Assembly (NCBI GenBank): GCA_030599175.1
Contig: JAUVON010000180.1
Coordinates: 1 to 6,081, forward strand
Direction: 5' to 3'
DNA length: 6,081 bases
From: Desulfobulbaceae bacterium
GTDB lineage: Bacteria; Desulfobacterota; Desulfobulbia; Desulfobulbales; Desulfocapsaceae
Made by a program: the position numbers and the translations under genes
In this document: positions 4,492 to 6,081 of the stretch, piece by piece
How positions within the stretch are numbered: the first letter of the stretch is position 1
Layout of the letters: the number at the start of each line of letters is the position of its first letter
Notes under the pieces: generated by a model
Told to the model about the DNA's origin: nothing
Databases searched by the model: none
The model's input: the letters and a program-made list of their open reading frames with translations, nothing else

Positions 4492-4998
4492 ATGAAAGAG
4501 AAAACAGATCTCAGTGCAAGCCTTGAAGATTACATTGAGGCAATTTATCACATAATTGAAGAAAAACTTGTCGCCAGGAGTAAAGAAATAGCAGCAAAAC
4601 TCAGTGTCAGCCGGGCTTCTGTGACTGAAGCCCTTCGTGCCTTATCCAAAAGAGGCCTCATCAATTATGCACCCTATGAGGCAATTACCTTGACGGACGA
4701 AGGAAAGATAGTTGCTGAAGATGTGATCTTTCGTCATGAGGCCCTGAAACGTTTTTTCATCGAGGTGCTGGCAATAGATACCAGTATTGCCGAAGAAGGT
4801 GCCTGCAGGATCGAACACTCCGCTCCACCTGAAGTTATTGCCAGAATGATCAGTTTCACTGAATTTATCAAGGTATGCCCTAGAGGTGGGGACGATTTGA
4901 TCCAGGGCTTCGCCGAATATTGTGCCAAAGGGAAACAGGGTGAAAAATGCGACAGCTGCGTGTCCAGCTGCCTGGAACCGTCACCTGAGGAAAAGTAA
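4492..4998 (+). CDS. DtxR/MntR-type metal-dependent regulator with Cys-rich tail
   Basis: A 168-residue metalloregulator. LEDYIEAIYHIIEEK opens a winged helix-turn-helix (about residues 11-72; recognition region VSRASVTEALRALSKRGLI, wing ending ITLTDEGK). A dimerisation and metal-binding domain follows (RHEALKRFF, then GACRIEHSAPPEV). Aligned by eye to B. subtilis MntR, Asp13, Glu16, His82, Glu108 and His109 match metal ligands, whereas Cys105 replaces MntR Glu99 and matches DtxR Cys102. The site is thus a hybrid, and Fe(II) or Mn(II) sensing cannot be decided. Beyond the core are Cys129, Cys144 and CDSCVSSC (Cys153, 156, 160). The protein lacks the room for the SH3-like third domain of long DtxR proteins. 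It presumably represses metal uptake or homeostasis genes when metal-loaded. No feo or mnt genes are in view. No clear Shine-Dalgarno sequence precedes the ATG. It is divergent from recN and converges with the selenoprotein gene. Confidence 0.88.
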   Translation: MKEKTDLSASLEDYIEAIYHIIEEKLVARSKEIAAKLSVSRASVTEALRALSKRGLINYAPYEAITLTDEGKIVAEDVIFRHEALKRFFIEVLAIDTSIAEEGACRIEHSAPPEVIARMISFTEFIKVCPRGGDDLIQGFAEYCAKGKQGEKCDSCVSSCLEPSPEEK

Positions 4999-5012
4999 CT
5001 CGCCGCATTCCA

Positions 5013-5240
5013 TTAAGAACCAGATTTTTTTATCAGCTGCTCAATCTCTCCATCCTCCGGAAACCTCTTCAGTTTCTTTTTTGAAAAGAGTAATTCTCCA
5101 TCAACAACTATCTCAAAGACACCATTCGACGAGGCTATCAGCCCAATTTCCGCACCAAGATCATTTTTCAGTTCTTCCCCCAGACTGGAGGCGCGTGGTT
5201 CATAATTTCACTTAGTGCAATATTCAATAGAAATTTCCAT
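5013..5240 (-). CDS. selW: SelW-like (Rdx family) selenoprotein, in-frame TGA = Sec
   Basis: A 75-residue protein when the TGA at 5210-5208 is read as selenocysteine. It begins MEISIEYCTK, then Sec11, then NYEPRASSLGEELKNDLG, and ends VFEIVVDGELLFSKKK-LKRFPEDGEIEQLIKKSGS. This is the full SelT/SelW/SelH layout: a first beta strand, a Cys8-x-x-Sec11 redox motif followed by Y-x-PRA at the start of a helix, then the F-E-V-x-V-D-G beta hairpin and the F-P-x-x-x-E-I helix. Bacterial homologues usually carry YCTxCNYxPRA, so the TGA sits exactly on a catalytic Cys codon. The protein is a small cytoplasmic thioredoxin-fold protein, presumably a thiol oxidoreductase of unknown substrate. AGGA at 5251-5248 lies seven bases before the ATG. 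A SECIS-like hairpin follows the TGA. The gene is divergent from the HD protein and ends 14 bases from the regulator's stop. A pseudogene with a nonsense mutation is the alternative, but everything else is intact. Confidence 0.88.
5177..5210 (-). promoter_or_regulatory. Bacterial SECIS element of the SelW-like gene
   Basis: In the mRNA, CCUCCA (5191-5186) pairs with UGGGGG (5182-5177) through six base pairs, one of them U-G, closing a three-base GUC loop (5185-5183). The first loop G is 22 bases after the UGA, inside the range I recall for bacterial SECIS elements (about 16-37). The GU in the apical loop matches the bases SelB recognises in E. coli fdhF, whose stem-loop top (CAGGUCUG) is similar. 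The element lies within the coding sequence, as expected in bacteria. I saw no good lower helix reaching the UGA. Confidence 0.72.
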
Positions 5241-5284
5241 AGCATCTTCCTGATTTAAAAATTATTGTTAATCATGATGTAGAC

Positions 5285-5295
5285 TGGAGACTCCA
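5285..5295. promoter_or_regulatory. Short palindrome between selW and the HD gene
   Basis: TGGAGACTCCA is a perfect five-base inverted repeat around one central A, with outer AGA (5281-5283) and TCT (5296-5298) extending the symmetry past a one-base offset. It sits 45 bases upstream of the SelW-like start and 63 bases upstream of the HD gene start. A one-base centre cannot be an RNA loop, so a protein-binding site is the more natural reading. I could not find convincing promoter hexamers for either gene in 5241-5358. Chance is possible. Confidence 0.25.
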
Positions 5296-5358
5296 TCTCT
5301 CGTTTGCAACCAACACTATTCATTTTTCAGAGACATCGCAATCACAAACCGGGATATA

Positions 5359-6081
5359 ATGTCACCCAGAGAAGACCAATCCACACTTTTCTCAATTCTG
5401 GAAGAACTAAACAGAAATGAAGAAATCTACCTTTCTCCATATGCCACCTGCAGTGGTTCAGGCATAAGGAGACATCCTGAAGAAAAAAGAGGCTACCGCC
5501 AGCAATTTGCCCTGGACGCTGATCGCATCCTCCACTCCCGAGCCTATATGCGATATATCGACAAAACCCAAGTATTTTGCCTAGTCGATAACGATCACAT
5601 AACCCATAGAGTCCTCCATGTCCAGCTTGTCGCCCGCATTGCCAGAACAATTGGCCGTTTCCTGCGCCTTAATGAAGACCTGATAGAGGCAATCGCTCTG
5701 GGCCATGATATTGGGCACCCTCCATTCGGGCATGATGGCGAAAGCTTCCTTGCAGAGCTGAGTGTGGAACATGGTTTGCCTCCTTTTCAACATAATATTC
5801 AATCCGTACGTTTTCTTGATAAACTTGAGCGAAAGGGAAAAGGATGGAATCTGACCCTGCAGGTATTAGACGGCATTCTCTGTCATGATGGTGAAATGCA
5901 TTCACGGCTACTTCAGCCACATAAGATAACCAGCTTTGAGGAGTTTGATCGGCAGTTAAATGAAAAGGAGCAGGATCCTCAACTCTCAATTCTGCCCTCC
6001 ACGCCAGAGGGATGCGTAGTTCGCCTTGCCGACACAATCGCATACATCGGAAAAGACATTGAGGACGCGATCATCCTGAAG
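5359..6081 (+). CDS. dgt: dGTPase-like HD-domain phosphohydrolase (3' end cut off)
   Basis: The first 241 codons of a gene that runs off the right edge without a stop. The protein resembles the dGTP triphosphohydrolase family, which splits dNTPs to nucleoside and triphosphate and so adjusts the dNTP pool. The N-terminal RRHPEEKRGYRQQFALDADRI and SRAYMRYIDKTQVF blocks are typical. The HD metal site is complete: ITHR with His83, GHDIGHPPFGHDGE with His116 and Asp117 (His120 and His125 close by), and RLADTIAYIGKDIEDA with Asp225. QHNIQSVRFLD (144-154) and CHDGE (175-179) are further family blocks. The ATG at 5359 is preceded only by a weak, close GGGA (5351-5354). No other ATG, GTG or TTG lies in frame between 5302 and it. 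The gene is divergent from the SelW-like gene with a 118-base gap. True substrate preference (dGTP or other dNTPs) is not visible. Confidence 0.88.
   Translation, partial: MSPREDQSTLFSILEELNRNEEIYLSPYATCSGSGIRRHPEEKRGYRQQFALDADRILHSRAYMRYIDKTQVFCLVDNDHITHRVLHVQLVARIARTIGRFLRLNEDLIEAIALGHDIGHPPFGHDGESFLAELSVEHGLPPFQHNIQSVRFLDKLERKGKGWNLTLQVLDGILCHDGEMHSRLLQPHKITSFEEFDRQLNEKEQDPQLSILPSTPEGCVVRLADTIAYIGKDIEDAIILK

Follow-up and report, generated by a model that had tools for sequence, protein, structure and literature searches.

The window analyzed here is the whole 6,081-nucleotide stretch of contig JAUVON010000180.1 from a Desulfobulbaceae bacterium, and it carries, between a gene for a DtxR/MntR-like metal-dependent regulator and a gene for a dGTP triphosphohydrolase, a short minus-strand gene that is predicted to encode a selW-type selenoprotein (Table 1). 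The other genes in the window encode a Dus-type protein, a ThiI-like protein and RecN, together with a 101-residue frame at positions 1275-1580 for which neither Pfam nor NCBIfam gave a match at E 0.1 and which is possibly a small protein. The DtxR/MntR-like regulator has a Cys-rich C-terminal tail (CAKGKQGEKCDSCVSSC) beyond the matched metal-binding domain. When the neighborhoods of 83 selW loci were compared, many of them reaching only 1.5 kb per side, at least one of RecN, DtxR, dGTPase or ThiI was found beside selW in 57; the adjacency of RecN, DtxR and dGTPase is frequent, it offers no defensible functional lead, and we draw no link from it.

Table 1. Position, strand and basis of assignment of the selW-type gene, its predicted signals and its two neighbors in the window
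Feature	Position	Strand	Details and basis
DtxR/MntR-like metal-dependent regulator, convergent neighbor	4492..4998	plus	Pfam/NCBIfam; neighbor in many relatives
Predicted selW-type (Rdx family) selenoprotein gene	5013..5240	minus	75 codons and TAA, ATG at 5240-5238; translation, family matches, TGA conservation, dN/dS
Predicted bacterial SECIS hairpin	5177..5191	minus	6-bp stem, 3-base loop G-U-C, 22 bases from UGA to loop; fold, pair conservation, published criteria
In-frame TGA, predicted Sec codon	5208..5210	minus	Residue 11, last position of CxxU; translation, conservation
AGGA, likely Shine-Dalgarno sequence	5248..5251	minus	7 bases 5' of the ATG; read from sequence
dGTP triphosphohydrolase, divergent neighbor, cut by window end	5359..6081	plus	Pfam/NCBIfam

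The selW-type reading frame and its family

The original prediction had proposed a complete 75-residue Rdx-family protein on the minus strand, with one TGA decoded as selenocysteine (Sec) within a CxxC redox motif and with a ribosome binding site before the ATG. Translation of the minus strand from 5240 to 5013 bears this out, since the frame runs from ATG to TAA with codon 11 as its sole internal TGA, and the AGGA upstream of the ATG can be read directly from the sequence. With the TGA read as Sec, the product is MEISIEYCTKUNYEPRASSLGEELKNDLGAEIGLIASSNGVFEIVVDGELLFSKKKLKRFPEDGEIEQLIKKSGS, in which NYEPRA follows the motif C8-T-K-U11; the "second position" of the redox motif at which the TGA had been placed is best read as the second cysteine. 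The family assignment also held when the product was compared with profiles, as it matched Pfam Rdx (PF10262) with an E-value of 5.9e-21 and 74.9 bits (cut-off 22.6), the NCBIfam family NF041051 (SelT/SelW/SelH family (seleno)protein) with 96.5 bits (cut-off 88) and TIGR02174 with 61.5 bits (cut-off 34.2). The Rdx E-value rules out a chance reading frame. Both motif columns, C8 and U11, were invariant across an alignment of 28 sequences in which U was written as C, and the motif follows the first predicted strand (residues 2-8), where membership of the Rdx/SelT-SelW-SelH group requires it.

The predicted fold of the product (pLDDT 89.9, a model only) is thioredoxin-like and of the SelW type. 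Structural matches to the solved SelW-related proteins 2fa8, 2obk, 2ojl, 3dex and 2p0g, with which this predicted fold is shared, had TM scores (query) of 0.84-0.90 at 28-36% identity. A total of 22 PDB chains were found with E ≤ 0.001, 21 of them from 2fa8, 2obk, 2ojl, 3dex, 2oka and 2p0g and one from MIEN1, with mouse SelW next in the search at an E-value of 2.7e-3. The three solved homologues that were compared residue by residue (2fa8, 3dex and 2ojl) have Cys, not Sec, in the TGA column. A thiol oxidoreductase role through C-x-x-U is likely from what is known of the family. A scan of the window against Rfam at a permissive E-value returned three matches, all to lncRNA families and all under their gathering scores, and neither a promoter nor a terminator was found in a scan of positions 4950-5400.

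The original prediction had further claimed that standard gene callers would miss or truncate such a gene, and for the relatives this was borne out, the gene being missed or garbled there. A protein database search returned 15 homologues (P0002-P0016), of which 10 have Trp at the Sec site and five start downstream and lack the site; a correct full-length protein for the window gene was not found in this search. The Trp at the Sec site in the 10 homologues is likely false and is consistent with gene callers that use TGA as a Trp codon.

Conservation of the TGA codon and of the hairpin behind it

The Rdx profile was used to search 78 genomes from the genus, family and order to which the window belongs, its own assembly included, and gave 66 matches in 63 genomes. 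All 65 order-level copies that reach the motif, including the two in the own assembly, have TGA there; the 66th match (G071:C66) stops short of the motif because its contig ends there. The TGA was likewise present in 17 of 17 named loci from a genome collection, which comprise MAGs and one other record labelled Desulfobulbaceae, Desulfocapsaceae, Deltaproteobacteria, Desulforhopalus, Planctomycetes, Phycisphaerae, Gemmatimonadetes/Gemmatimonadaceae or Bacillota, the nearest being MAGs labelled Desulfobulbaceae bacterium with 95% protein identity. The two sets overlap, so that their 82 genes amount to 75 distinct sequences from the TGA onward. No copy examined from the order had exchanged UGA and SECIS for a Cys codon. 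An Rdx match was absent from 15 of the 78 genomes, and from 13 of the 59 with completeness of 90% or more and contamination of 5% or less. Two more divergent selW-type copies, L111 (G032:C79) and L103 (G016:C92), retain the TGA, and G032 has two matches. A tblastn search against plasmids gave 20 records, each below 60% identity. Overall, these data indicate that the TGA is an inherited feature of the gene.

The own assembly (G000) holds a second, syntenic selW copy on contig C93, which retains the TGA. Its differences from the window copy number 16, of which the Nei-Gojobori method counts 9 as synonymous and 7 as non-synonymous, giving a dN/dS of 0.20. When the window copy was compared with five copies from the same genus or the own assembly, dN/dS was 0.11-0.20 for the complete gene and 0.11-0.24 for the portion 3' of the UGA. 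By this measure purifying selection acts on selW, including the stretch beyond the TGA. The DtxR-selW-dGTPase stretch as a whole occurs twice in the assembly, on the window contig (C237) and on C93, with protein identities of 96% for the DtxR part and 93% for the dGTPase, and the presence of these two copies on different contigs suggests that the assembly combines two closely related strains or species.

Behind the UGA lies a predicted SECIS-type hairpin. If the U of the UGA is numbered 1, its stem is made of bases 20-25 and 29-34, which enclose the 3-base loop, and 16 bases separate the UGA from the stem. The 82 genes gave 73 distinct 45-base sequences, and the first loop base was G in all 73. 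One of these (L074, in the single-contig same-genus genome G006:C1) keeps the UGA and the loop and has one G fewer in the GGGGG run of the 3' arm, where its frame changes; a homopolymer sequencing error would explain this, and a real frameshift is possible. L074 was left out of the pair counts, leaving 72 distinct sequences. Of these, 56 are able to form the complete set of six pairs, whereas 500 permutations of synonymous codons within each gene gave 5.6 on average (sd 2.2, maximum 12). In L111 the paired bases have changed and all six pairs form. When each genus was represented by a single sequence, six pairs were possible in 27 of 32, compared to 2.3 (maximum 7) in the permutations; sliding the register gave six pairs in 0 of 32 in each of six registers, a comparison in which the chosen register has the advantage of having been picked from the same sequences.

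In the second pair, the third base of an Ala codon faces that of a codon which is Gly, Glu or Ala in 70 of the 72 sequences; both partners are wobble positions, so that changes on either side are mostly silent. Its states were U-A in 41 sequences, C-G in 22 and A-U in three, making 66 Watson-Crick pairs, with U-G in two and C-A in four. When the partner base was exchanged among sequences sharing the first two codon bases, 44.2 Watson-Crick pairs (sd 3.5) were obtained and none of 5000 shuffles reached 66; shuffling among relatives leaves their relatedness in, a limitation that weighs less on permutation within genes and on the subset with one sequence per genus. In addition, the codon at the end of the 5' arm and the start of the loop was AGT in all 40 sequences with Ser at this place, compared to 17 of 245 Ser codons further on.

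Published criteria for bacterial SECIS elements (PMC13188914) are a stem of 4-16 bp, a loop of 3-9 bases with G among its first two, a distance of 16-37 bases from the UGA and an energy of at most −7.5 kcal/mol. The window hairpin lies within these limits, with 6 bp, loop GUC, 22 bases and −7.7 kcal/mol in the first 45 bases. For the window copy, the hairpin is the minimum-energy fold at 45 bases and a rival fold wins at 60 bases, with the pair probabilities of the stem falling from 0.64-0.98 to 0.18-0.42. Among the minimum-energy folds of the 72 sequences, six pairs appeared in 31 at 45 bases and in 29 at 60, and at least four pairs in 49 and 45, respectively. At least one of the six pairs is missing in 16 of the 72 hairpins; among the 82 genes, 11 have fewer than four contiguous pairs beside the loop in the fixed register, and seven have an energy above −7.5 kcal/mol. 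Folding energies in sliding windows were only weakly shifted after the UGA (mean z −0.55), with −0.42 for windows starting 30 and 33 codons further on. Since this signal is weak and a rival fold exists at 60 bases, we base the argument for the hairpin on its conservation and covariation and not on folding energy. The pattern of substitutions indicates that the hairpin is conserved beyond coding need, and of all the evidence the hairpin speaks most strongly for Sec insertion itself.

Selenocysteine machinery and other readings of the TGA

The original prediction called for selA, selB, selC and selD in the same genome. The own assembly is a draft of 2.9 Mb in 430 contigs, 86.8% complete and 3.3% contaminated, and three of the four were found in it: tRNA-Sec (selC) with 77.2 bits (cut-off 47) and a TCA anticodon by ARAGORN, SelB with 368 bits over positions 1-580 of 581, above its cut-off, and two SelD genes above the cut-off. 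In 14 control genomes, five passed for tRNA-Sec, two for SelB and two for SelD. Each SelD gene has an in-frame TGA near its N terminus followed by a short hairpin with G as the first loop base; the pair (L017, on G000:C44, and L018, on G000:C185) are full-length and clearly different in sequence, and extra fragments lie on C369. The fourth, SelA, was not found in this 86.8%-complete assembly by a profile search that gave matches in four of the 14 controls, E. coli included, one of them over the cut-off, nor was it found there with a same-genus SelA protein as the query, a search that had no positive control. Across the 78 genomes, SelA matches were present in 65, and in 63 over the cut-off. 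The six other same-genus assemblies, which are 72-95% complete, gave a near full-length selA in two (G002 and G006), a fragment at a contig start in one (G005) and no selA match in three. At least 20 of 66 selA matches begin less than 700 bases from the first base of their contig, making assembly breaks a plausible cause of the missing selA. Assemblies from this order may be prone to break at some feature immediately upstream of selA.

The absence of selA might also be taken to mean that the gene is intact and the species has lost selA, so that the product would be truncated or would come from inefficient read-through. Its absence from the own assembly and from half of the other same-genus assemblies speaks for this, but those assemblies are incomplete and three of the six do hold selA or a piece of it, the position of so many matches near contig starts means that selA may often vanish at contig breaks, and SelB, tRNA-Sec and two SelD genes with in-frame TGA have all been retained; we therefore regard loss of selA as very unlikely. 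Reading of the TGA as Trp by a table-4 style code, or by general read-through, would account for the Trp at this site in 10 of the 15 database homologues. However, these letters would most simply be the output of gene callers set to TGA as Trp. TGA also terminates the dus gene of the window and three of the six selW copies compared (those on C93, in G002 and in G004), which rules out a reassigned TGA code, and tRNA-Sec, SelB and SelD are present in the assembly along with a SECIS-type hairpin after the UGA. With these points against it, any decoding as Trp or by general read-through is hardly credible.

The TGA lies one base from the Cys codons TGC and TGT, and Cys occupies this column in the three solved homologues, as expected if the TGA were a nonsense mutation in a decayed Rdx gene. 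A lone decayed copy among intact Cys genes was one outcome that the original prediction had named as speaking against it, and the data point the other way: the same TGA stands in every assessable copy of the order and in every named locus, the five dN/dS comparisons remain low after the UGA, and wobble sites of the hairpin covary. The common TGA and the purifying selection largely refute decay on the evidence of the sequences, and we give it practically no chance. Overall, these results support, with high confidence, the reading of positions 5013-5240 as a conserved SelW-type gene whose UGA is predicted to be decoded as Sec and whose product is likely a thiol oxidoreductase acting through C-x-x-U. 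In the mechanism that we propose, SelB carrying Sec-tRNA(Sec) would bind the hairpin 3' of the UGA and would deliver Sec at codon 11 instead of termination, and the product would carry out redox chemistry on a thiol partner by means of Cys8-Sec11. We infer that translation reads through this UGA with Sec inserted, that the organism has SelA and that such redox chemistry takes place.

SelW-type selenoproteins in bacteria and what the window gene adds

The SelW-like family is a common and long-known family of bacterial selenoproteins. Table 3 of a 2006 study (PMC1794560) listed a SelW-like protein for Desulfotalea psychrophila, which belongs to the Desulfobulbales and the Desulfocapsaceae, and a table of losses in sister organisms in the same paper includes SelW-like for Geobacter sulfurreducens. 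In Table 2 of the GOS ocean survey, no selenoprotein family has more members than SelW-like, with 427 Sec sequences compared to 56 Cys sequences (PMC2398784), and the SelW-like members of the Sargasso Sea set are described as carrying bacterial SECIS elements (PMC1088965). For Epsilonproteobacteria, PMC4607533 reports SelW genes that annotation had overlooked and a SECIS hairpin that covaries and whose loop has an invariant G, as well as one putative SelW of Campylobacter fetus without an optimal SECIS. For the 80-residue SelW of Campylobacter jejuni, PMC11955535 describes a UGA read by tRNA-Sec and reports full-length translation by Ribo-seq and proteomics. This protein is from a different lineage; the window protein passes NF041051 (SelTWH_Campy). 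With the bacterial SelT/SelW/SelH selenoproteins in general (TIGR02174, NF041051 and the "SelW-like" proteins of Zhang and Gladyshev), the window gene has family, CxxU and SECIS type in common, and we found no mechanistic difference from them. A literature search on bacterial selenoprotein W in Desulfobulbaceae found no paper. The window gene is thus well supported but ordinary in kind.

Sec-to-Cys exchange has already been reported as rare in most families (PMC1794560), so the retention of UGA seen here fits a known trend. A selenium-only branch of SelW, in which Sec would be indispensable wherever the gene is kept and the gene would be lost and not converted to Cys, is an idea that we offer tentatively and consider rather doubtful. 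The present work adds one correctly read gene to a known family and illustrates how such genes go wrong in databases. Together, the UGA in all 65 order-level copies and the 15 of 78 genomes with no Rdx match offer a practical setting in which to study why certain SelW proteins have stayed with Sec and do not resort to Cys.
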